From Streptomyces sp. CBMA29 (lineage in GTDB: Bacteria; Actinomycetota; Actinomycetes; Streptomycetales; Streptomycetaceae), in assembly GCF_014596445.1 (NCBI RefSeq), contig NZ_MECL01000220.1, positions 1-64,000 on the forward strand: DNA of 64,000 bases, written 5' to 3'. The notes under the pieces were generated by a model. The model was not told the origin of the DNA, made no database searches, and saw only the letters and a list, made by a program, of their open reading frames with translations. The number at the start of each line of letters is the position of its first letter. The stretch's first letter is position 1. Positions 16,986 through 64,000 of this stretch are shown here, piece after piece. The position numbers were made by a program, and so were the translations under genes.

Positions 16986-17908
16986 CTGCACCCCGCGCAC
17001 GCGGGGATGACCCCGTCCCTGAGATCGGCATCTCAGGTCGCCTTACCTGCTCCCCGCGCACGCGGGGATGACCCCTCCAAGGCCCCCTTGAACCGCCACC
17101 TCGTGTACTGCTCCCCGCGCACGCGGGGATGACCCCGATGTCGAAACGTCGGCGCAACTCGTGAATAACTGCTCCCCGCGCACGCGGGGATGACCCCAGC
17201 ACGGGCCCGAACACGGCTTCGTCGTCCATCTGCTCCCCGCGCACGCGGGGATGACCCCTTGTCCATCATGTCCCGCGCCTCTTGGGACTGCTGCTCCCCG
17301 CGCAGGCGGGGATGACCCCGTCCTGCACGTCCTCGGCAAGGGCGACCGAGACTGCTCCCCGCGCACGCGGGGATGACCCCTACCGGCCCGACACGTCCAC
17401 CGCCGACTCCGCCTGCTCCCCGCGCACGCGGGGATGACCCCGTCCAGGCCGAATTCGACGTTGGTGGTCATCGCTGCTCCCCGCGCACGCGGGGATGACC
17501 CCTGCGCCATCTGCACACGGCGGCGGCCCAACGCCTGCTCCCCGCGCGCGGGGATGCCCCTGGGGGCTACGCGGCACTGTGCCCCGCGCATAGCGGCTCC
17601 CCGCGCGCCGCGGGGATGCCCCCGCGTTGTGCGGCACGCCGCGCTCGCGCTCCAACTGCTCCCCGCGCGAGCGGGGATGACCCCCGCCTGCGGATGCTGC
17701 GGGAGACCGGCCTGCTCTGCTCCCCGCGCAAGCGGGCTCCTCGTGCGGCCGCCGCCGTCTGCTCCCCGCCCGCGCGGGGATGCCCCCTGGACCGCGTACT
17801 CGTTGAAGGTGTCCAACAACCGCTCCCCGCGCGTGCGGGGATGGCCCCGGGGGCTATCTGGCGCTGTGCCCCGCGCATAGCGGCTCCCCGCGCGCCGCGG
17901 GGATGACG
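16986..17908 (+). CRISPR. Type I-E-like CRISPR array A, about 16 repeats
   Basis: 29-bp repeats with 5' part CTGCTCCCCGCG and 3' part CGGGGATGACCCC occur every 61 bp (32-bp spacers) from 16986. The first nine are nearly perfect. From 17535 the repeats decay: missing bases at 17535-17560, a truncated copy at 17717-17738, and the CGGCTCCCC variants at 17594 and 17881. Decay at the right end and the leader at the left fix transcription as +. The spacer at 17562-17593 and the one at 17849-17880 match at 28 of 32 positions. No cas gene is adjacent. Confidence 0.95.
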
Positions 17909-19521: not shown

Positions 19522-20697
19522 CTGCTCCCCGCGCGAGCGGGGATGACCCCTTCAGCATCAGATCCGGCCGTGTCCGGAAGCTCTGCTCCCCGCGCGAGCG
19601 GGGATGACCCCGCGATTACGACCTCTCCGCCCGCGGCGGCGGTCTGCTCCCCGCGCGAGCGGGGATGACCCCAACACCCCGCGCGGCGACGCAGGGCAGA
19701 TGTCCTGCTCCCCGGGCGAGCGGGGATGACCCCGGCACCCAGCAGCCGCGCGAAGTCTTCTCCGGCTGCTCCCCGGGCGAGCGGGGATGACCCCACCGGC
19801 GCGAACGTCTACGGGACCGTGCCCACCTGCTCCCCGCGCGAGCGGGGATGACCCTCCGGTCACGGCTGCGGAGTAGACGCGGGCGCCCTGCTCCCCGCGC
19901 GAGCGGGGATGACCCCTCGAACGCCTCATGGGACAGCCCACCGTGACCACTGCTCCCCGCGCGAGCGGGGATGTCCCCCCTACCGACAAATCCGGCTCGC
20001 CGCTCTGCTTCTGCTCCCCGCGCGTGCGGGGATGACCCCCAAGCCCGCATGGTGTTCGATGCTGCTAAGCACTGCTCCCCGCGTATGCGGGGATGACCCC
20101 AGCCACGAGACGCCGACGCCGGAGAGCGCCGAGCGCCCCCCGCGACAGCGGGGATGGCCCCTGAGTCGCGCGGGCGGCGTCCCCGCACGCGCGCTGCTCC
20201 CCGCGTCCGTGCCGTGGGGATGACCCCTCCATGAAGATGGGGCCAGCGGGGGCCACGTCCTGCTCCCCGCGCGAGCGGGGATGACCCCGCCCACGGGATG
20301 GCCGTGGTCCTATCGTCGTACTGCTCCCCCCCGCGAGCGGGGATGACCCGAAACACTCGGGCACGGCACCTCGCCGCGCCCCTGCTCCCCACACACATGC
20401 CGTGGGGATGACCCCATGCGGGCGCTGATGGCCTCGCCCGCCGTGGACTGCTCCCCGCGCGAGCGGGGATGACCCCTCGATCGAGTCCGCCTCGGAGTCG
20501 ACCTGTCCCTGCTCCCCGCGCGAGCGGGGATGACCCCAGCCGCCGCGTGACCTGCACGCCGTGTGCTCCCCGCTCCCCGCGTATGCGGGGATGAACCCTG
20601 GTGCTGGTTGACGTCCGCGTCGTAGACGCGCTGCTCCCCGCGTCCGTGCGGGCGCGGATGGCCTTGCCCGGTGCGGACTGGTCCCCGCGCGGGAGGG
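19522..20697 (+). CRISPR. Type I-E-like CRISPR array B, about 19 repeats
   Basis: Repeats with 5' part CTGCTCCCCGCG, centre CGAG, and 3' part CGGGGATGACCCC start at 19522 with a 61-62 bp period. Two repeats (19705, 19766) have CCCGGGCGAG in the loop. Two (20194-20227 and 20382-20415) are lengthened by about 5 bp and read GCCGTGGGGATG. Repeats from 20567 onward are strongly altered, and the array runs out at the stop codon of the first DUF397 gene. Orientation is +, by leader position and distal decay. Confidence 0.95.
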
Positions 20698-28164: not shown

Positions 28165-28289
28165 CGCGCCGCCGGTCGGTGGCCGGTGGTCGGTGGCGAA
28201 GGGCAGGGCGGGGCCCTCGGCGCAACTGTCCGGCTCCACCCCGCCGCTGTAGGACGACTCGCGCCACCCGGGGTCGCGCGCCCGGGTGC

Positions 28290-28317
28290 CTGCTCCCGCC
28301 TTCGCGGGGATGACCCC
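28290..28317 (+). CRISPR. Isolated CRISPR repeat ahead of array D leader
   Basis: CTGCTCCCGCCTTCG then CGGGGATGACCCC, a 28-bp copy of the repeat with one base missing. It precedes the array D leader rather than following it, so it is a remnant of an older array end or a duplication scar. Confidence 0.75.
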
Positions 28318-28507
28318 ACCCACACCACGAACCTCCGCGACGACCTCGACCTCGCCTTCGCCGCGAGCACGCTGGCTGGCCATGAGGGCCCTACGCTGTC
28401 CCCGTGCCGCCCCGGCCTTGGCGCAATCCGGTTCGCCCCATTCCCCCGATCCTCGCCAACGCGCCCACCCCGCCCTCTCCGGCCGGCAACCCCCCACGTC
28501 AGCAAGC
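28318..28507 (+). promoter_or_regulatory. CRISPR leader of array D
   Basis: About 170 bp align with the leader of array E: CCACCCACACCACGAACCTC at the far end, CCCTACGCTGT, GGTTCGCC, CCCGATCCTCGCCA, CCGGCCGGCAA and CACGTCAGCAAGC next to the repeat. No gene is evident. Confidence 0.8.
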
Positions 28508-29446
28508 CTGCTCCCCGCGTACGCGGGGATGACCCCAGGGCGGGGCGGCCCTTGCCGATGTCGAGTGCCTGCTCCCCGCCCACGCGGGGATGATCCCTTC
28601 CGCCACGCGGTGGAGACGTCAGGTTGGGCCTGCTCCCCGCGCACGCGGGGATGACCCCCCGAGGGTCTGGAGCGGCACACGCTCGTACGCTGCTCCTCGC
28701 CATGCGGGGATGACCCCTCGTCCATCGTGTCGCCCTCGATCCGAGCCGCCTGCTCCCCGCCCATGCGGGGATGGCCCCTACAGCGACCAGTGCGAGTTGC
28801 CCGCCGGACACTGCTCCCCGCCCGCGCAGGGATGACCCCACCCGCCCGGCGTCTGTGCCCGTGCTCTGCCCCTGCTTCCCGCGTACGCGGGGATGACCCC
28901 AGCGAGCCCCGCTCCAGCGGGTTGGTGATGCCCTGCTCCCCGACCTCGCGGGGATGGCCCCGCCTCATCCACGTACACGTCCGTGATCAGGTGCTGCTCC
29001 CCGCGCACGCGGGGATGACCCCGTGCACGGGGCGATCATCGACGAGCTGCACGACTGCTCCCCGCACGCGGGGATGACCCTGGTGTGGTCGTCCACCACA
29101 CCGTTACCCAGGGCTGGTCCCCGCACTTGCGGGGACGACCCCGCCTGCCCGCGTCGGCGTGGTCCTTGCGCTGCTGCTCCCTGCGCACGCGGGGATGAAC
29201 CCGACGTGGAGACCGCCCTGGCCAAAGGCACCGACTGCTTCTCGCCCCCGCGGGGATGATCCCCCGGACGTGAACGGCTCCATCCGCATGAGCGGCTGCT
29301 GCCCGCACACGCGGGGATGACCCCAAAACGGCACCCGGCACCTACGGCGGTGACGCCTGCTCCCCGCCCTCGCGGGGATGAACCTGGGGTGGTCGTCCAC
29401 CACACCGTTACCCAGGGCTGGGCCCTGCACATGCGGGGATGACTCA
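28508..29446 (+). CRISPR. Type I-E-like CRISPR array D, 16 repeats
   Basis: Repeats begin at 28508 with a ~61-bp period. They are more variable than in array E: ATGATCCC at 28569 and 29235, ATGGCCCC at 28750 and 28933, CCTCGCC at 28690. The last ones (29114, 29418) are clearly decayed. The spacer at 29082-29113 recurs at 29386-29417 with one mismatch in 32, each copy being followed by a degenerate repeat starting CTGG. Orientation is +. Confidence 0.95.
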
Positions 29447-29603
29447 CCGACGCTGGACGGGGGAGCGGGCCTCCCGTTTCTCTGCACGGGCGGGGCGGGC
29501 GGACGGCGGGAGTTGTGGTCGCAGAGGGGAGCGGGGCGCTGGGCCGCTGACGTCGATACGGGGTGGGGGCGGACGAACGGTCGCCTCGTGTGATGCTGGC
29601 GGG

Positions 29604-30104
29604 ATGAGCGATCAACCTGAGGTTGCCGTGGTTCGGTGGCCGGACCGGGCGCCTCCGGTCGGGGACGGGCTGGCCGGGCTGTTGGCGGCCTACCATCTGC
29701 GGACCGAGGCCGAGAAGGGGGCGCCGGTCGCGGGGGTGGACGGGCTGCCGGACCGGTACCGGGCGGAGATCACCGACCCTCGGAGCGCGTTCGCCGACGA
29801 TGTCGTGCTGGTGGCGCTCGTGGGGGACGCAGCCGTGGGCTGTGTGGTGGCGACGCGCCCTGACCACGGGCACTCCGAGGTCAAGAGGCTCTGGACCGAC
29901 CCCGAGTCGCGAGGCCGGGGCGTCGCGTCCGCCTTGCTCAGCGCGGCGTTCGCGCAGGCGGCGGAGAACGGCGCGGACACGGTCCGGCTCTCGGTGTGGA
30001 CGTGGCGGACCGGGGCCATCACGCTGTACGAACGGCTCGGCTTCACCGTCACCGAGTCGTGGGACGAGCGGGACCAACTGGTCTGCATGCAGCGCGCCTT
30101 GTGA
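29604..30104 (+). CDS. GNAT-family N-acetyltransferase
   Basis: 166 residues from ATG 29604. The acetyl-CoA motif A is KRLWTDPESRGRGVASALLS (R/Q-x-x-G-x-G/A as RGRGVA), followed by LSVWTWRTGAITLYERLGFT, the C-terminal beta strand and the YERLGF signature. A typical small-molecule or protein N-acetyltransferase; the substrate cannot be read. It lies between two CRISPR arrays with no operon partner. The Shine-Dalgarno sequence is weak. Confidence 0.88.
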   Translation: MSDQPEVAVVRWPDRAPPVGDGLAGLLAAYHLRTEAEKGAPVAGVDGLPDRYRAEITDPRSAFADDVVLVALVGDAAVGCVVATRPDHGHSEVKRLWTDPESRGRGVASALLSAAFAQAAENGADTVRLSVWTWRTGAITLYERLGFTVTESWDERDQLVCMQRAL

Positions 30105-30168
30105 ACGGTCGCCGTCATCCGTTGACGTCCGCACAATCGCGTATCGCGCGGCGACGGCACGGCGCGTC

Positions 30169-30196
30169 GTGGCCCCCGCGTCAGCCGGGATGGCCC
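30169..30196 (+). CRISPR. Strongly decayed CRISPR repeat ahead of array E leader
   Basis: GTGGCCCCCGCGTCAGCC then GGGATGGCCC resembles the repeat at roughly 20 of 28 positions. Its place, just upstream of the array E leader, mirrors the isolated repeat at 28290 before leader D. Confidence 0.35.
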
Positions 30197-30236
30197 AGCC
30201 GTCTGGACGGCCGTCGTGCCGCGCGTCGCACTGGTG

Positions 30237-30410
30237 CCCACCCACGCCACGAGCCTCGTGACGACCTCAGCCGCTCCTGCCCGTGCCCTCGGGGCGGCTC
30301 TACGCTGTACGCGGGCCGTCTCCATCCGCGCCGGTTCGCCGCCTTTGCCCGATCCTCGCCACCTGATGAAATCCGGCCCCAACCGCCGGCAAACCCCGAC
30401 GTCAGCAAGC
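30237..30410 (+). promoter_or_regulatory. CRISPR leader of array E
   Basis: CCCACCCACGCCACGAGCCT at the far end, CTCTACGCTGT, GGTTCGCC, TTTGCCCGATCCTCGCCA, AAATCCGGCCCC, CCGCCGGCAA and GACGTCAGCAAGC next to the repeat. It is the cleanest of the five leaders and aligns over its whole length with leader D. Confidence 0.82.
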
Positions 30411-30800
30411 CTGCTCCCCGCGCACGCGGGGATGATCCCTTCGCGGTCTCGTTCTCCGCGATGTCCGACGGCTGCTCCCCGCGCACGCGGGGATGATCCC
30501 GGGTCGTGCCCGGCGCTCTCCATCCAGCCGTGCTGCTTCCCGCGCGAGCGGGGATGATCCCGCCGCCTACCTCGCGGCGGCCGGTGTCGCCAACTGCTTC
30601 CCGCGCACGCGGGGATGATCCCGCCACGGACCTGAGGGGCAACAGCAACAGCACCTCCTCCCCGCGCACGCGGGGATGATCCCTTGGCGAAGGCATACGC
30701 CGAGCACCAGACCCACTGCTCCCCGCGCACGCGGGGATGATCCCTGTCCACGCGTTCCGGGCAGACGGATACCCCCCTGCTCCCCGCGCACGCGGGGATA
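30411..30800 (+). CRISPR. Type I-E-like CRISPR array E, 7 repeats, truncated
   Basis: Seven repeats at exact 61-bp spacing with 5' part CTGCTCCCCGCGCACG and 3' part CGGGGATGATCCC. They are the most uniform set in the window and differ from the others by ending GATGATCCC. The seventh (30777-30800) stops after CGGGGATA and runs straight into a coding-like fragment, so the distal part of the array has been lost. Confidence 0.95.
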
Positions 30801-30931
30801 TGGATGTGTGGCACGCGCCGCAGGTGGCCGCGAGGCTCATGGCGGGTGGGGCGATTGCGGTCCTCGGCGCCCTGGTCCTGGCCCGGTCGGCGGGCCGGAT
30901 GGCCATCGCCTTGGTGCTGTACACCGAGTAG
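30800..30931 (+). pseudogene. Membrane-protein fragment fused to the last repeat of array E
   Basis: The last repeat's GGGGAT continues in frame as ATGGATGTGTGGCACGCGCC, giving DVWHAPQVAARLMAGGAIAV, then LGALVLARSAGRMAIALVLY and TE. A VWHA...A.RLM start followed by a membrane segment resembles the SdpI/YhfL-like membrane family, but only about 40 residues remain and no ribosome site precedes it. It is best read as the C-terminal scrap of a gene left by a recombination event that also cut the array. Confidence 0.35.
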
Positions 30932-57442: not shown

Positions 57443-58846
57443 ATGGTTCTCGACTCGTGGCGCAATCTGCGCGCCGCCCGCCACTCCGCGAGCACCACCG
57501 CTGGCAGGCGGTACCCGCGCGCCGCCGACGGCCAAGTCCTCGTTGAAGCGCGGGAGTTGACGAAGTCCTACGCCGGGGCCGACCGCGAGCTGCCGGTCCT
57601 GGGCGGCATCGACCTCCAGGTCAAGGCGGGCGAAGTCGTCGCGCTGCTCGGCAAGTCCGGGTCCGGCAAGTCGACGCTGCTGCGCTGCCTGGCCGGGCTG
57701 ATCCCGCCCAGCTCGGGCGCCGTCACCTACCGGGGCGAGCCGCTGACCGGCGCCAACCCCGGTACGGCCATGGTCTTCCAGACGTTCGCGCTGCTGCCGT
57801 GGCTGACGGTCCAGGAGAACGTCGAACTCGGCCTGGAAGCCAGGGGAGTTCCGGCCGCGCAACGCGCCGACGCCGCCGTCCAGGCCATCGACCTCATCGG
57901 CCTCGACGGCTTCGAGACCGCGTATCCAAAGGAGCTGTCCGGCGGCATGCGCCAACGCGTCGGCTTCGCAAGGGCGTTGGTCGTGGAGCCGGACGTGCTG
58001 ATGATGGACGAGCCGTTCTCCGCGCTGGACGTGCTGACCGCCGAGAATCTGCGCGGCGAGCTGATGGAGCTGTGGGAGTCGGGGCAGTTCCCGACCCGCG
58101 CGATCGTGCTGGTCACGCACAACATCGAGGAGGCCGTCCTGATGGCCGACCGGATCGTCGTGCTGGGCTCGCGCCCCTACGGAACGATCCGCGAGACGTT
58201 CGAGGTCGGCCTCGACCGGCCCCGGGACCGTAACGCCGCCGCTTTCGAGGACCTGATCGACCGCGTCTACCGGACGATGACCGGCCGCGCGAAGGAGACC
58301 CGGCTGCCGGGGCGCGCGGAGGGCGTCGGCCGCCCCGAGGGCGTGGAACTCGACAAGCGGACCGCCGCCAACACGCCGCTGCCGCCCTCCAGCGTGGACG
58401 GCCTGTCCGGCATGGCGGAGATGGTCGCCCACCGGGGCGGCGCATGCGACCTCGCCGATCTCGCCGACGACCTCGGCCTGGAGATCGACGACGTCCTGCC
58501 GATCGTCGACGCCCTCGACCTGCTCGGCTTCGCCACCGTCAGCGGCGACGACCTGCTGCTCACCGACGTCGGCGCCGCCTTCGCCGGGGCCGACGTCCAG
58601 GAGTCCAAGACGCTCTTCGCCGAGGCCGTCGTCGCCGGCGCCCCGCTCGTCCGCCTCATCACCACCAGTCTCCGCCAGAACCCGGACGGCGCCCTCCGCG
58701 CGGGCTTCTTCCGCGACGTCCTCGCCCACCACTTCACCAGCGAACAGGTCACCCGACAGCTCGACGTCGCCACGGACTGGGGCCGGTACGCGGAGCTCTA
58801 CGCGTACGACGCGGAGCGACAGGAGTACCGGCTCGACACGGAGTAG
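57443..58846 (+). CDS. ABC transporter ATPase with C-terminal AAA-associated domain
   Basis: 467 residues; AGGAGG precedes ATG. Walker A GKSGSGKST (70-78), Q-loop AMVFQTFALLPWL, signature LSGGMRQRVGFARAL, Walker B VLMMDEPFSALD, switch His in VLVTHNIEEAV: the nitrate/sulfonate/taurine ATPase subgroup. A C-terminal domain (~315-467) resembles the AAA-associated domain seen fused or adjacent to such ATPases. Together with the duplicated permease it would import an anion or thio-compound; direction is inferred from the family. Confidence 0.88.
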   Translation: MVLDSWRNLRAARHSASTTAGRRYPRAADGQVLVEARELTKSYAGADRELPVLGGIDLQVKAGEVVALLGKSGSGKSTLLRCLAGLIPPSSGAVTYRGEPLTGANPGTAMVFQTFALLPWLTVQENVELGLEARGVPAAQRADAAVQAIDLIGLDGFETAYPKELSGGMRQRVGFARALVVEPDVLMMDEPFSALDVLTAENLRGELMELWESGQFPTRAIVLVTHNIEEAVLMADRIVVLGSRPYGTIRETFEVGLDRPRDRNAAAFEDLIDRVYRTMTGRAKETRLPGRAEGVGRPEGVELDKRTAANTPLPPSSVDGLSGMAEMVAHRGGACDLADLADDLGLEIDDVLPIVDALDLLGFATVSGDDLLLTDVGAAFAGADVQESKTLFAEAVVAGAPLVRLITTSLRQNPDGALRAGFFRDVLAHHFTSEQVTRQLDVATDWGRYAELYAYDAERQEYRLDTE

Positions 58847-58872
58847 GGGGCCTGGGGGCGCGGCTTTCCGGA

Positions 58873-59289
58873 CTACTGGCCCGTCGCGGGGCGGGTGCGC
58901 CGGGCCCGCGCGGGCTGCCGCTGCTCCTGGCGTACGGGAGCGGCCTCGTCCTGTCCGCTCCCGCCGCCGGACCCCGGCCCCGCACCGGCGTCCTCCGCCG
59001 CCAGCGTCGCCTCCTCCAGCAGCCCGCGCACATGCCCGCCCGCCGCGCGGTAGTACATACGGGTCCCCTCCCGCCGCGACGTGACCAGCCCCGCCGCCCG
59101 CAGCCGCGCCAAATGCTGCGACGTCGCCGCCACATGCGCCCCCAGCAGCTCCGCGAGCGCGCTCACCGGCAACTCCTGCCCGCTCAAAGCCCACAGCAGC
59201 CGGTACCGCGACGGATCCGCCACCGCCTTCAACACCGCCACGGCCCGCTCGGCCCCAGCAGCGTCCCAAGCTCTCACTTGCGTACCCAT
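58873..59289 (-). CDS. ArsR/SmtB-family regulator
   Basis: 138 residues. VLKAVADPSRYRLLWALSG, LAELLGAHVAATSQHLARLR, AAGLVTSRREGTRMYYRAAG is a canonical ArsR winged helix. It has no Cys at all, so a thiol-based metal site is excluded; AGGHVRGLLEEA keeps only part of the alpha-5 His/Glu site. A low-complexity C-terminal tail (~95-138) is unusual. Its start codon lies inside the operator described at 59277, which points to autoregulation, and possibly a leaderless mRNA. The ABC operon is the probable target. Confidence 0.88.
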   Translation of the reverse strand: MGTQVRAWDAAGAERAVAVLKAVADPSRYRLLWALSGQELPVSALAELLGAHVAATSQHLARLRAAGLVTSRREGTRMYYRAAGGHVRGLLEEATLAAEDAGAGPGSGGGSGQDEAAPVRQEQRQPARARRTRPATGQ

Positions 59290-59298: not shown

Positions 59299-62200
59299 CT
59301 ACCTACCGGCCCCCACGCCGACGAAGCCGTGGGCTCGGGCCAGCTCCGACAAAGGGCCCAGTGCTTCGGGCGCCAGCCGGGGGAGCAGCGGAATCGCGTA
59401 CGTCCAGCCCTCGCCCTCGCCCGCGCCCGCGCCCGCGACCAGCTTCCCGACGACCGACATGGCCGTCGTGCCGTCCGGTGCGGTGCCGTCACCCGCGGCA
59501 TGGGCGAGCGCGAGGCAGAGACGGACCGCGGCGTCCTGCGACGACGGATCGACGGAGAGTGCGACGGGGGCGCCCGCGAGGTGCGTCGCGACGGCGGCCA
59601 GGGCGACGACCCGCACCGTCGGATCCGCCGCCTCGGCGAGCCGCCTGGCCTCGGCGACATCGCCCTCCACCGCTTCGAGGACGGCCAGCTCCGCGTAGGG
59701 GAGCTGGTCCCGCGACAGCGTGTGTCGCAGGTCAGCCGTCGCGTCGGCCAGGACGTCCGGCGCCGGACAGCAGCCGAGCCGTAGGAGCAGGGCCAGGACC
59801 GCCAACGACGGCGCGTGCCATTGCTGCCGGGGCTCCTCGGCGAATTCGTCAAGGACCTGCCGCATCGCCTCGCACCACGCCAGCCCTGGCCGGCGCACAT
59901 CCGGAAAACCGAGCAGGAGCTCAGCCGACCGAAGGAGCGGGTACTGGCCGCCCGCCTTCTCCGTCTGTTGGACGACCAGGCTCGCGGCCGCCTCGGGCAC
60001 TCGGCGGGCGAGCCCGGCCGCTACCGCGATCAGCGACCGGTTGTTCTGTACCCGGCGGCCGGGCTTATCGACGTCCTCGGGATCCTTCCGCTCCGCCATC
60101 CCCACCGCGGCGGCGGCCTCCCCGGCGTGGGCGAGCGCCTGAGCGATCGCACCGCGCAGCGCGGGATCATGCAGGTCGCCACCGAGCCGCGCCGCTTCCT
60201 TCGCGTACGCCACCGCGGCGCTGTCGTATCCGCCCTGGGAGCACCCCAGCGACAGTGCCGCCAGGTACCGAGCCCGGCTCTCCGGCTCTGGCGCCGCCGT
60301 CAGCAACTGGTCCGCCCGAGCCAACTCCCCTGCTGCGCCAAGCGCTTGGGCGAGTGCCAGCGGCCAACCGCCGTCGCTGGTGACCCGTCCCGCCGGAACG
60401 GGCGAGCGACGCAGAGCTTCCTCCAGACGCCCGCGGCCGAGCGGGAGGTTGCCGTCCGCCAGCAACCGCTCGGCCTGGCCGAGCAGCGCCACATGCTCGG
60501 GCGGGTCGAAGCCGTCACCGGGCTGATCGTCATGGTCCTGCGGGAAGTCGGAGGCGCGCAGGCGACGCCGTAGGGGTCTGGGCGGGTCGGACGGCTCGAC
60601 GCCGTTGGTTCGCTGGGTGGTGTCGGTCTGCTTCGGCGAATCGACCGCTGGCTCCGTCCGCCCCCGCGGTGCCACCTCCCCGCGAGCCTTTCTCTCTTTC
60701 CACTCCTGTCTGACCTTGTCCGCCTCCGCACGGCCGAGATCCTTCTGCCTTCTCCTCTCCTTCCGGTCCTCCTCCTCGATCGCCCTGAACGCGGCCTTCT
60801 CCGCGGCCCTGCGCTGCCTGGCCTCCGCGTTGTCCGCCTCCATCCGCTCCGCGAGGTCGTCGCCCAGCACGCCTGCGCGCAGTCGCTCGCGGTGCTTCGC
60901 CACCAACTCCTCGATCCTGCCGAGGGAGTTCTGGTCGATCCGGTTGTCGACGGCGGCCTGATGCAGGCGGACGAGCGTGGTGGAGATCTCCCGTCGCAGG
61001 TGGGCCTGATCAGCGGCGGAGAGCTCGTCCGGGGCGGCCAGCGCGGCGGTGAGGTGGTCCAGAGCCCGCCTCATAAGGGGAAGAGCCTCCGTCTTGCGGC
61101 TCTTCAACGCTGAGGCGCCGAGCGAGAGGACATCGACCGTCATCAGTCCGTCCGACGTATCGACGTCCTCGCAGATCGCCTTGATGCGATTCCTGGAGTC
61201 AGGTGCGCGGCTGGGAACGTTGCTGGCGATGGCGGCCAGGATGTCCACCGCGGCGGCCAGAGCCTTCGGCTTACCCGCACTCAGATCGTCGACCCGCGCT
61301 TCCACCGCCCTCAGCCAGCTCCGGTCGCCCTCCTCCGGCAGGGTGTTCACCGCCGCGATCAGCGTCTCGACATCGGCCTCCCCGCTCAGGACCACTGCCT
61401 TCAGCAGGGCGTACGCGGCTTCGGTCTCTTGGTGCGCGTGGAGTTCGTGAGCGGCCTCGGCGATCTCCGCGTACGCGACGCCTACTTCGGGCGGGCCGGG
61501 GCGTACGCGGTCAGCGCGCGCCACCCAATTCACCGCCTCCTGCGCGATCGAGGCGGCTTCTTCCGACCCCGCGCGGCTCAACTCCGCGGCGACTTGCGCC
61601 AGTCGCGCCGCCTTGACCACGGGATTCGACGCCGAGCGGGCCAACGCGCGGGCGCGCGCCGTGTCGCCGAGCCGGGCGTAGAGCACCGGTGCCCGGTACG
61701 GCACTTGACGTGCCTCGCGCAGCATCGAAGCGCGCGAGGCGGCGAACCGCAGGGCCAGCCCGAGGTGTTCAGGGCTCGTGGCCCCCTCGCCCACCTCCGA
61801 GCCGAGCGCCTCCATCTGCGCGAGGGCGACGTCGTGACCGGCCATCGCGGCGAGCCGCACCTGCCGACGGGCGTCGAGAACGTACTCCGTACGCACAGCG
61901 GTGTCGTCCAACAGCCGGAGATAGTCCGTCAGCAGATACGGCGGCGTACCGTCGGGCCAGCCCTCGACCCGCCAACGCCCGGCCCAGGCGTGCAACAACC
62001 CGGCGTGGTGCGCGACGCCGGTGTCCCCGAGCTCCTGCCGCACGGAACAGACGATCTCCGGATCACTCAGCCCGTACGTCTCGGCCGCCGGATCGGTCAC
62101 CGGCTCGCTCGATACGACGCAGCGCCCGTCCGCGCTCCGGAGGAGGCCGTCCACATCGTCGACCGGCGCCCCGGTCAACTCCGCGAGGTCTTCTACGCGC

Positions 62201-63261
62201 AGGCCCCCGCCCGCCACCGCGAGCAGATCCGTCACCGCCCTGCCCAGGTCGTTCCCGCGCAGCCGCTCCGCCGCCTCTCTTGACGCGCTGCCGTTCTCCT
62301 CGGCTCCTTCGAATGCCCCCAGCGCGCGCAGACACTCCCGCAGCCGCAGCGGGTGCCCGGCCGGAAGATCGTCGGGAAGGCGCGCAACTCCCCGGCTGGA
62401 GACGATGATTCGCAGGTTGGCGGCGGGCTCGACGGGAAGCAGCGCCGCGATGCTCTCGCCGTCCTTCCGGCCGACGGAGCCCCACGCCGCGTCTTCGTCG
62501 AGGCCGTCGACCACGAGAAGGAGCTTCCTTCCGTGCCGGGCACTCTTCGCGGCCGCCTCGCCGAACAGGCGCGACCAGCCCGCCGCGTCATGGGGGTCAG
62601 GAAGGGAAGATTTGCTCCGCCGCAGGAACGCCCGGACCTGCTGGCCCATCTCGGTGATGAAGGCCGCACGGGTGTTGGTGCCGCTCGCCTCGGACACGAA
62701 GAAGTTCAGCACATCGGCATTCGGCGGCGGCCTCCTCACGCAGTCGGCCAGCATGACGGTCTTCCCCACCCTGGAACGCGCGTACCACCACAAGTACGAA
62801 GGCGCCTCCGGCGCGGAGTCGCGGACGAAGCCGAGCATCACCTCCCGCTCGGCCCGTCGCCCCACCAGACCGTTCCGAACTCCCTGGCCCGACAGGTGGG
62901 GCCGGACGAAGGGGGCGCCCTTCCGGGCGGGGTGATCCGGAAGGGCGTGTGCCTCGCGCTGCCTCCTGTCACCTTCCCGCTGGGCTGCCCGGAGCGCAGC
63001 CTCCAAGTCCGCATCGCTGAAGACGGCGCGACCGACGGCCGCCTGTAACTTCCTCACCAGGTGCCAGAAGCGGGCTTCTGCCTCCGCCGTCGAGGCAGGG
63101 GCCGATTTGCCCTTGCGCCAACTCCCAAGGGCGGTTGGGCTTGGCGCCTCCCCTCCCCTAACGCGTACCGCCTCGCGCTCGCTCAGCCCCGAAGCCGTCA
63201 GCAGCTCTTGCACCATGGCGCCGAAACGCTCATGCGGTGTTGTTCCACCGGGGTCCGTCAC
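59299..63261 (-). CDS. STAND-type NTPase with HTH-like N-terminus and helical repeats
   Basis: 1320 residues from GTG 63261 (GGAGGCGGAG upstream). An N-terminal ~95-residue helical domain with SPTALGSWRKGKSAPAS resembles the XRE-like module of actinobacterial NTPases. The NTPase domain (~130-400) has ARSRVGKT at 161-168 as P-loop, with Ala in place of the first Gly, and LLLVVDGLDED (247-257) as Walker B. TPR-like helical repeats follow (~490-800), then a charged coiled coil (~835-900), a low-complexity linker, and a second repeat array (~960-1320). The architecture suits a sensor switch such as those used in phage defence or signalling; no effector domain is recognisable. It overlaps no neighbour and abuts arsR. 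Confidence 0.75.
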   Translation of the reverse strand: MTDPGGTTPHERFGAMVQELLTASGLSEREAVRVRGGEAPSPTALGSWRKGKSAPASTAEAEARFWHLVRKLQAAVGRAVFSDADLEAALRAAQREGDRRQREAHALPDHPARKGAPFVRPHLSGQGVRNGLVGRRAEREVMLGFVRDSAPEAPSYLWWYARSRVGKTVMLADCVRRPPPNADVLNFFVSEASGTNTRAAFITEMGQQVRAFLRRSKSSLPDPHDAAGWSRLFGEAAAKSARHGRKLLLVVDGLDEDAAWGSVGRKDGESIAALLPVEPAANLRIIVSSRGVARLPDDLPAGHPLRLRECLRALGAFEGAEENGSASREAAERLRGNDLGRAVTDLLAVAGGGLRVEDLAELTGAPVDDVDGLLRSADGRCVVSSEPVTDPAAETYGLSDPEIVCSVRQELGDTGVAHHAGLLHAWAGRWRVEGWPDGTPPYLLTDYLRLLDDTAVRTEYVLDARRQVRLAAMAGHDVALAQMEALGSEVGEGATSPEHLGLALRFAASRASMLREARQVPYRAPVLYARLGDTARARALARSASNPVVKAARLAQVAAELSRAGSEEAASIAQEAVNWVARADRVRPGPPEVGVAYAEIAEAAHELHAHQETEAAYALLKAVVLSGEADVETLIAAVNTLPEEGDRSWLRAVEARVDDLSAGKPKALAAAVDILAAIASNVPSRAPDSRNRIKAICEDVDTSDGLMTVDVLSLGASALKSRKTEALPLMRRALDHLTAALAAPDELSAADQAHLRREISTTLVRLHQAAVDNRIDQNSLGRIEELVAKHRERLRAGVLGDDLAERMEADNAEARQRRAAEKAAFRAIEEEDRKERRRQKDLGRAEADKVRQEWKERKARGEVAPRGRTEPAVDSPKQTDTTQRTNGVEPSDPPRPLRRRLRASDFPQDHDDQPGDGFDPPEHVALLGQAERLLADGNLPLGRGRLEEALRRSPVPAGRVTSDGGWPLALAQALGAAGELARADQLLTAAPEPESRARYLAALSLGCSQGGYDSAAVAYAKEAARLGGDLHDPALRGAIAQALAHAGEAAAAVGMAERKDPEDVDKPGRRVQNNRSLIAVAAGLARRVPEAAASLVVQQTEKAGGQYPLLRSAELLLGFPDVRRPGLAWCEAMRQVLDEFAEEPRQQWHAPSLAVLALLLRLGCCPAPDVLADATADLRHTLSRDQLPYAELAVLEAVEGDVAEARRLAEAADPTVRVVALAAVATHLAGAPVALSVDPSSQDAAVRLCLALAHAAGDGTAPDGTTAMSVVGKLVAGAGAGEGEGWTYAIPLLPRLAPEALGPLSELARAHGFVGVGAGR

Positions 63262-63424
63262 CGCAACTCCGCCTCCTGCGCGTCCTCGTCAAAGATTGCT
63301 GCTCTGACCTGTGTCGATCGTGCTTCTGCGAAGGTCCGGATCTTCCGGTGCACCGCCTCCCTGTCCGACGCTGGACCCATCGCCACACCAGCCCGCCCCG
63401 GGCCCCGGACGGAAGGTCGCCACC

Positions 63425-63604
63425 GTGCCCCTGCTCCCCGAACTGCTCCACAGCGCTGCCGCCCTGACCGCCACCATCGGTCTGCTCTACGGAAGCCTTC
63501 TGTCCATTGTCGCCCTCGCCTCAGTCCTCGCCCGCACCCCAGAACGCCGCCGTGACGCCCGCTCCACCCTCAGGATCCTCGTGAGGGGACGGCGGTCTGG
63601 GTGA
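63425..63604 (+). CDS. Small single-pass membrane protein divergent from the STAND NTPase
   Basis: 59 residues from a GTG preceded by GGAAGG. One membrane segment (~11-33: AALTATIGLLYGSLLSIVAL) and a basic cytoplasmic tail (RTPERRRDARSTLRILVRGR). It is divergent from the NTPase and followed by a perfect terminator hairpin, which supports it being a real transcription unit. Function is unknown; a role with the NTPase as membrane effector is possible but only inference. Confidence 0.55.
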   Translation: MPLLPELLHSAAALTATIGLLYGSLLSIVALASVLARTPERRRDARSTLRILVRGRRSG

Positions 63605-63790: not shown

Positions 63791-64000
63791 TTGTCCGAAG
63801 CGCTCACCAACGGGCCTGCTGAGCAGCGACTTAGCTGGGACCCCCGGTATAAGCCGTGCATTCCCACCGTGACCCTCGACGGTGCCACCGCCCACCACTC
63901 GCTGTGCGCCCTTCTCTCCAAGGCCGATGACCTAAGTGCGATCAACTGCGCTACGCCGGGCGAAACCGTAGCCGTCATCGAGTACTTGATGGCCATCTGC
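63791..64000 (+). CDS. Probable cse1/casA, large subunit of type I-E Cascade (5' end only)
   Basis: The frame runs off the right edge. Read from TTG 63791 it gives MSEALTNGPAEQRLSWDPRY, KPCIPTVTLDGATAHHSLCA, LLSKADDLSAINCATPGETV, AVIEYLMAIC. This follows the N-terminal pattern of Cse1: an L/F-rich start, P-x-I-P with a hydrophobic strand and DG, then SL-x-x-LL-x-x-A, a proline turn, E-x-x-A-V and an L-x-A-I helix. Cys stands where PWIP usually has Trp. GTG 63869 is an alternative but would remove the IP motif. The I-E-like repeats in this window make a nearby Cascade operon likely. No cas3 precedes it. Confidence 0.5.
   Translation, partial: MSEALTNGPAEQRLSWDPRYKPCIPTVTLDGATAHHSLCALLSKADDLSAINCATPGETVAVIEYLMAIC

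Follow-up and report, generated by a model that had tools for sequence, protein, structure and literature searches.

What does a type I-E Cascade do when the place upstream of its operon is held by a STAND ATPase and a small membrane protein instead of cas3, and how are the CRISPR arrays lying tens of kilobases away related to it? This question is raised by the window analyzed here, which comprises the first 64,000 bases of a 244,439-base contig (C220) of a Streptomyces genome (G000, 8.48 Mb in 277 contigs) and ends inside the first gene of the operon. A previous sequence-only reading of this window had taken its last 210 bases for the beginning of a Cse1/CasA gene and of a type I-E effector operon, and had expected further cas genes to the right. 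The features concerned are listed below, in coordinates of the window continued along the contig.

16986..17905, + strand: CRISPR array with repeat CTGCTCCCCGCGCACGCGGGGATGACCCC, the first nine repeats at an exact 61-bp spacing
19522..20642, + strand: CRISPR array of the same repeat family, fairly regular
28289..30805, + strand: CRISPR arrays with more degenerate repeats and gaps between clusters
28318..28349, + strand: spacer matching R4-like Streptomyces phages (30/32 in Pablito; PAM AAC)
59299..63261, − strand: STAND ATPase of 1320 aa with an N-terminal Xre-like HTH, a STAND NTPase and a TPR solenoid (PADLOC PDLC01173 STAND_TPR, 1040 bits)
63305..63313, + strand: gap element TGACCTGTG, the copy at this locus of TGACCTGCG, 120 bp before the start of the membrane peptide
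63425..63604, + strand: membrane peptide of 59 aa with one hydrophobic helix, a basic tail and a GTG start (PADLOC PDLC01143 Unk_04, E 4e-18)
63791..64000, + strand, continuing to 65401 on C220: start of cse1/cas8e, 536 aa (Pfam PF09481 CRISPR_Cse1)
65394-65987, + strand, beyond the window: cse2 (PF09485, 54 bits)
65867-67330, + strand, beyond the window: cas7e ORF (PF09344, 186 bits)
67327-68235, + strand, beyond the window: cas5e (PF09704, 133 bits)
68073-68972, + strand, beyond the window: cas6e ORF (PF08798, 128 bits)

The Cascade operon and its divergent neighbors

The frame at the right edge meets no early stop codon but runs on to 65401, and the 536-residue protein contains a Cse1 domain (CRISPR_Cse1, 198 bits against a Pfam cut-off of 24.7). 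It is directly followed by cse2, cas7e, cas5e and cas6e, every gene overlapping or abutting the preceding one, so that both the Cse1 assignment and the operon expected at this edge were borne out by extension and translation. With the NCBIfam models, cse2, cas5e and cas6e score above their cut-offs and cse1 and cas7e below; since casA_cse1 gives 56 bits (cut-off 70), this Cse1 is considered divergent. An AlphaFold model of Cse1 (pLDDT 64) was set aside, and no conclusion is drawn from it. The single ORF examined past cas6e is phytase-like according to the family search, and at 57443-59289, within the window, two ORFs were judged on visual inspection to encode an ABC transporter ATPase (+) and a small repressor of the HTH type (−).

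The lack of an upstream cas3, which had also been noticed before, holds for the whole contig, on which profile searches found no match to Cas3_HD, Cas3-like_C_2 or the cas1 models. In addition, no nuclease domain was detected by Pfam in the five Cas proteins or the STAND ATPase. The earlier view that the window contains no other cas gene, and that the operon is a complete system in an unusual order, fared differently: the absence of cas3 stands, but two CRISPR-associated genes (the STAND gene and the membrane peptide gene) had been overlooked, and it is they that hold the upstream place. An ordinary type I-E system with odd gene order was therefore rejected on the basis of the STAND_TPR match in that position, and the locus is a known derived variant of type I-E, Cas3-less and STAND-associated, which the sequence-only reading had not recognized.

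The STAND gene lies directly upstream of the Cascade operon and is divergent from it, and the peptide ORF sits in the gap between the STAND gene and cse1. Both PADLOC labels already describe this setting: PDLC01173 is annotated as "Predicted ATPase fused to Xre-HTH and TPR repeats domain, associated with cas1-less I-E system in Streptomyces" and PDLC01143 as "I-E associated membrane protein, same context as STAND NTPase". By Pfam, the ATPase matches NPHP3_N alone, below cut-off, and the peptide has no match. An AlphaFold model of the STAND homologue from G103 (L090; pLDDT 79, 13 sequences) displays an HTH, an NTPase and a long helical solenoid, and no enzyme domain is apparent in it. A Foldseek search with this model returned no match at E<=0.001; 6mfv, a STAND-TPR protein of solved structure, came fifth (E 6e-3, probability 1.00).

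Distribution and ancestry of STAND-associated Cascade loci

Two samples of relatives were used. In the first, STAND_TPR was searched at E<=1e-140 in 394 genomes of the family, which gave 21 loci in 20 genomes, the present one included, and stretches of 16-20 kb around the 20 other loci were examined. All five Cascade genes were found at 16 of these 20, that is, at 17 of 21 loci in 17 genomes when the present locus is counted. The membrane peptide occurs at 17/17 STAND-Cascade loci and at one of the four STAND_TPR loci without Cascade. In G009, the STAND gene is split into two pieces.

In the second sample, which partly overlaps the first, a profile of the 17 Cse1 sequences was used to collect 52 Cse1 loci in named genomes of Streptomyces, Actinacidiphila, Actinomadura, Nocardiopsis and Allonocardiopsis. 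A STAND gene is present at 45 of the 52, and the peptide accompanies it without exception (45/45 STAND loci versus 0/7 STAND-less loci), always adjoining the STAND gene in head-to-head, divergent orientation. The pair lies upstream of cse1 in 37 loci and downstream of cas6 in eight; since these eight form one clade of the Cse1 tree (100/100), the relocation probably happened once. By contrast, cas3 shows the opposite distribution: it is found beside cse1 in 5/7 STAND-less loci (L201 and L209-L212, with domains confirmed in L201 and L209) and gave a hit in only 2/45 STAND loci (L187 and L215). Weak hits (<100 bits) at the cse1 position were excluded from this count, the cas3 query from G239 being fused in frame to cse1, as was a 55-bit, 60-codon cas3-like stretch in L172.

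These data bear on whether the STAND gene and the peptide might be an independent two-gene defense module that hitch-hikes beside Cascade. Such a module would account for the four STAND_TPR loci (out of 21) that lack Cascade, one of which has the peptide, and for the occurrence of the pair at either end of the operon. However, 17 of the 21 STAND_TPR loci are joined to Cascade and 45 of the 52 Cse1 loci have STAND, cas3 hits are concentrated at the STAND-less loci, and the pair has remained with Cascade after its relocation within the operon, which makes hitch-hiking quite unlikely in our opinion. That three of the four Cascade-less loci are also without the peptide is nevertheless counted against the function proposed below.

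In the Cse1 tree (midpoint root), the 46 STAND-associated rows, including the present one, form one clade (99/97), with the STAND-less relatives outside it and Cse1 of canonical type I-E systems of Streptomycetaceae far away. In this phylogeny, the STAND clade is nested among Cas3-bearing relatives, and we infer that STAND and the peptide may have joined a Cas1-less, Cas3-bearing I-E lineage, Cas3 then being lost in most members. L187 (Streptomyces sp. Isolate_45) has, in addition to STAND and the peptide, a Cas3 of 1021 aa containing both the HD and the helicase domain, and is a possible intermediate of the replacement of Cas3 by STAND; as it is nested inside the STAND clade, either several losses of Cas3 or one regain must be assumed. 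L215 has cas1 and, separately, a 536-aa ORF matching cas3, and L183 has a partial cas1 match. Among the STAND-less loci, L197 (Streptomyces sp. NRRL B-24085) consists of a Cascade with an adjoining array region of ~3 kb, and no cas3, STAND or peptide was found within ~10 kb on either side, while L205 (Streptomyces acidiscabies NRRL B-16521) has a 302-aa remnant of Cas3 HD and a DDE transposase ORF inside cas7.

It could also be supposed that the locus is a decayed relic, Cascade and arrays being functionless leftovers of a Cas3 system beside which STAND happens to lie. Broken members such as the split STAND gene of G009 and the interrupted cas7 of STAND-less L205 would fit this, as would the missing cas3 and the many degenerate repeats of the present arrays, the last of which also weigh against our preferred explanation. 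On the other hand, the five Cascade genes are together in 17/17 STAND-Cascade loci of the first sample, their order is unchanged across the second sample's 45 STAND loci, Cse1 of the second sample retains 49-74% identity to the present protein over the best segment, and the peptide is kept in every STAND locus. We consider decay very unlikely.

The gap between the STAND and peptide genes contains a short element, TGACCTGCG, which is present with <=1 mismatch in 31/46 gaps and in 81/1840 random windows of the same loci; the former rate overstates independence because the loci are kin. Thirty copies begin 105-141 bp and one begins 75 bp before the peptide start, no reverse-orientation copy was found in the 46 gaps, and 15/46 gaps lack the element. 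It may be an operator for the STAND HTH or a promoter element. A regulatory role of the ATPase would follow from the former: STAND could be a transcriptional switch whose Xre-like HTH acts on the divergent gap, and Cascade binding or some other stress would alter expression of the peptide, the outcome being dormancy or control of development and not suicide upon phage infection. The N-terminal HTH, the divergent gene order in 45/45 loci and the positioned motif in 31/46 gaps speak for such a switch; yet HTH binding is a prediction, the motif could equally belong to a promoter, and the phage-matching spacers described below point to phage as the trigger. We regard this option as unlikely.

Arrays, phage-matching spacers and PAM

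The sequence-only reading had counted about 60 type I-E-like repeats in the window. The repeats are real, with 53 periodic stem matches and 48 copies at <=4 substitutions, 46 of which lie on the + strand between 16.9 and 31.0 kb. It had also tied them to effector genes about 33 kb away; the distance is correct (the last repeat is ~33 kb from cse1, and the arrays are on the same contig at 28 kb from STAND), and the tie itself is plausible. Repeat stems are found in 17/17 STAND-Cascade genomes and in many members of the genus without a close STAND_TPR as well, so that presence of repeats alone proves no association, and association was judged by linkage and by the absence of rival systems.

In 11/17 genomes, the contig that carries the STAND-Cascade locus also has an array no more than 30 kb from it. 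Besides the present one, the distance is <0.5 kb in five (G327, G070, G020, G239 and G134) and ~4-11 kb in five others (G151, G088, G009, G346 and G317). No array was detected within ~18 kb on either side of the locus in G103, G112 and G186, and in G069, G299 and G354 arrays were found on other contigs only, the locus of G069 filling its short contig. In the second sample, an array was found within the fetched stretch at 16/45 STAND loci, 1/7 STAND-less loci and 0/45 shuffled sequences.

Stretches covering part of the arrays of nine genomes were compared with 50,697 phage records, with a spacer cut of E<=0.01 that was set after the match lists had been seen. At this cut, nine spacers of four genomes are aligned with phage sequences. 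Apart from the spacer of the present genome listed above, those of G327 match phages SF3, Success, ZL12, Gilgamesh and Chymera, one of G346 matches the RusA gene of mycobacteriophages such as ThulaThula, and those of Streptomyces hydrogenans (L203) match Celia and its relatives, and PapayaSalad. This partial search gave no spacer-aligned match at E<=0.01 for G134, G020, G151, G299 or Actinomadura macrotermitis.

All nine protospacers (one from the present genome and eight from the three relatives) are preceded by an AAN PAM, AAC in five cases and AAG in four. In the fetched phage pieces, a background that spans a few kilobases, AA accounts for 2.1% of dinucleotides, and nine out of nine is therefore far from chance. 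The third PAM base equals the last base of the repeat in 8/9, the exception being a degenerate repeat before the Chymera spacer. An AAN PAM was reported for the type I-E system of S. avermitilis in the relevant passage of PMC12231136.

Several further matches were left out. Those to the Gordonia phages Ashertheman (E 0.03, G134) and Dmitri (E 0.04, G151) are out of register with the spacers. Also left out of the count were Microbacterium phage Skylord (E 0.03, L203), whose match is aligned with a spacer and preceded by the PAM AAC, VWB (E 0.03), which is hit by the same spacer as SF3, and Microbacterium phage MortySmith (E 0.3, present array). Matches at E<=0.01 to PIS 136, to ZL12 near 83.9 kb, to Salmonella and Escherichia phage records and to prophiGD05-3 are mostly longer, of ~65-81% identity and often in several pieces, and were taken as repeat-to-repeat or gene similarity. 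In two of these records, Saccharomonospora phage PIS 136 (JX006077, ~15.7-15.9 kb) and Streptomyces phage ZL12 (GQ919031, ~83.9 kb), the arrays are matched at their repeats, as if these phages carried I-E-like arrays. Similarly, many Streptomyces plasmids such as NZ_CP102510 match the present arrays over ~40-50% of the query at ~20-36 places each (among 40 of 347 records listed), which looks like plasmid-borne arrays with similar repeats.

The same genomes allow a further explanation to be weighed, namely ordinary type I-E interference with Cas3 made elsewhere in the genome. A Cas3_HD match outside the locus was indeed obtained in 8/17 STAND-Cascade genomes (weak in G020), and in G070 the STAND-linked and canonical arrays have one repeat in common (in G009 and in the present genome they differ). 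However, profile searches gave no Cas3_HD match in the other 9/17, and the Cse1 tree places the canonical proteins at a great distance. A canonical-type Cse1 is additionally present in 6/17 genomes (G000, where it is partial, G070, G103, G112, G186 and G239), five of which have an I-E cas1 above cut-off. The nine without Cas3_HD include G327 and G346, which supply 6/9 of the phage-matching spacers and have one Cse1 each and no match to Cas3_HD or I-E cas1; because of this, the STAND-associated Cascade is the only I-E effector found there that could use the array.

In the present genome, the canonical I-E locus (L004, contig C77, ~23.9-29.8 kb) is broken, with cas3 in two frames with a stop, cas1 in two frames, a Cse1 match confined to positions 1-320 of the 450-position profile and a 30-codon cas6 end nearby; its array has a different repeat, ending in ..GCGGGGCTGTTCCC. 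A further Cas3-like helicase domain lies on contig C158 (36.4-38.6 kb; L007, L010) near a 601-aa frame with a cas1 match, and perhaps belongs to another type I system. We consider a supply of Cas3 in trans highly improbable. As no cas1 was found with the locus, its spacers may have been supplied by a canonical system acting in trans, or may date from before that system was lost.

Proposed function and relation to known systems

Phage-derived guides, the lack of Cas3, a STAND ATPase without an apparent enzyme domain and a peptide inseparable from it suggest target-triggered membrane killing or dormancy. We consider it reasonably probable that this Cas3-less, STAND-associated locus serves abortive infection or dormancy under RNA guidance. 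A more specific proposal, which we put forward tentatively and at slightly less than even chances, is suicide without DNA cutting, in which a Cas3-less Cascade guided by phage spacers triggers the NLR-like STAND protein and thereby unleashes a 59-residue membrane toxin. In the former, more general scheme, Cas6e would cut transcripts of the linked I-E arrays, and possibly of further arrays whose repeats are compatible. Cascade would carry the crRNAs and stay bound where a phage protospacer is flanked by an AAN PAM. The STAND ATPase, in place of Cas3, would sense the bound Cascade and switch on, and the membrane peptide would be the executor, either released or clustered directly by STAND or, by an alternative route, induced when the HTH of STAND acts on the gap between the divergent genes. 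We infer every contact among Cascade, STAND and peptide, as well as the toxic outcome, whereas gene content, the joint inheritance of STAND and peptide, the linked arrays, the spacers that match phages with a PAM and the lack of a Cas3_HD match in many hosts are direct observations. Against the proposed function weigh the six of 17 genomes with no array near the locus, the five of nine searched genomes that yielded no spacer match, the frequency of I-E-type repeats in members of the genus without STAND, the need to explain spacer acquisition without cas1, and the 15/46 gaps in which the motif is missing.

Avs proteins are STAND/NLR-type antiphage ATPases that bind a phage protein and carry their own effector domain. 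They resemble the present system in having a STAND ATPase as a possible cell-death switch; however, in Avs a phage protein is sensed and the effector is built in, whereas the present locus would sense its target through guide RNA and act through a peptide encoded apart from the ATPase. Canonical type I-E shares with the present locus the order cse1-cse2-cas7-cas5-cas6, 29-nt repeats, mostly 32-nt spacers and the AAN PAM, but has cas3 with the operon, whereas the present locus has no adjoining cas3 or cas1 and its Cse1 is far from the canonical Cse1 of Streptomycetaceae. I-E2, I-E3 and I-F4 are comparable as type I effectors from which Cas3 is typically absent (I-E2 and I-F4) or in which another partner has joined it; according to the parts of PMC12669027 and PMC10910872 that deal with them, an HNH or other nuclease domain is fused to a Cascade subunit, while Pfam detects no nuclease domain in the five Cas proteins or STAND of the present locus.

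The closest known system is the STAND-associated I-E variant of Streptomyces itself, which goes back to Shmakov 2018 and Makarova 2020, as told in sections of PMC12231136 and PMC8730458. The present locus agrees with it in its Cascade genes, the lack of cas3 and cas1, the STAND ATPase and the small membrane protein, and both PADLOC models of the variant match its proteins. Minimal Streptomyces I-E variants without cas1, cas2 and cas3, located beside STAND NTPases and small membrane proteins, have been hypothesized to signal cell death or dormancy, for which the 2025 review states, in the section concerned, that there is no experimental evidence (PMC12231136). Short statements on the variant are found in passages of PMC6452270 and PMC11507055, and the 2025 classification (PMC12669027) lists STAND among its figure-legend abbreviations and does not discuss the variant in the passages available.

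In a portion of a 2022 review (PMC8730458), STAND-associated I-E modules are said to have no array, in contrast to the arrays within 30 kb in 11/17 genomes found here, some of them with phage-matching spacers and an AAN PAM; we take this mismatch as a correction of the description of the variant and not as a reason to exclude the present locus from it. A literature search, mostly outside subscription papers, retrieved no experimental study of the variant and no report of its arrays. As far as this search shows, the linked arrays in 11/17 genomes, the lack of a Cas3_HD match in 9/17, the AAN PAM, the co-occurrence of peptide and STAND, the nested clade and the gap motif are new.

A variant devoid of arrays would offer no clue to its guide RNAs or targets. 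Linked arrays containing phage-matching spacers with a PAM represent the missing input, and the inseparable STAND-peptide pair is the likely output. The older hypothesis of cell death or dormancy therefore becomes directly testable, with one cloned locus and phages such as R4, SF3, ZL12 and Gilgamesh. If the proposal is true, the locus would be a type I CRISPR system that kills at the membrane by way of a STAND switch.
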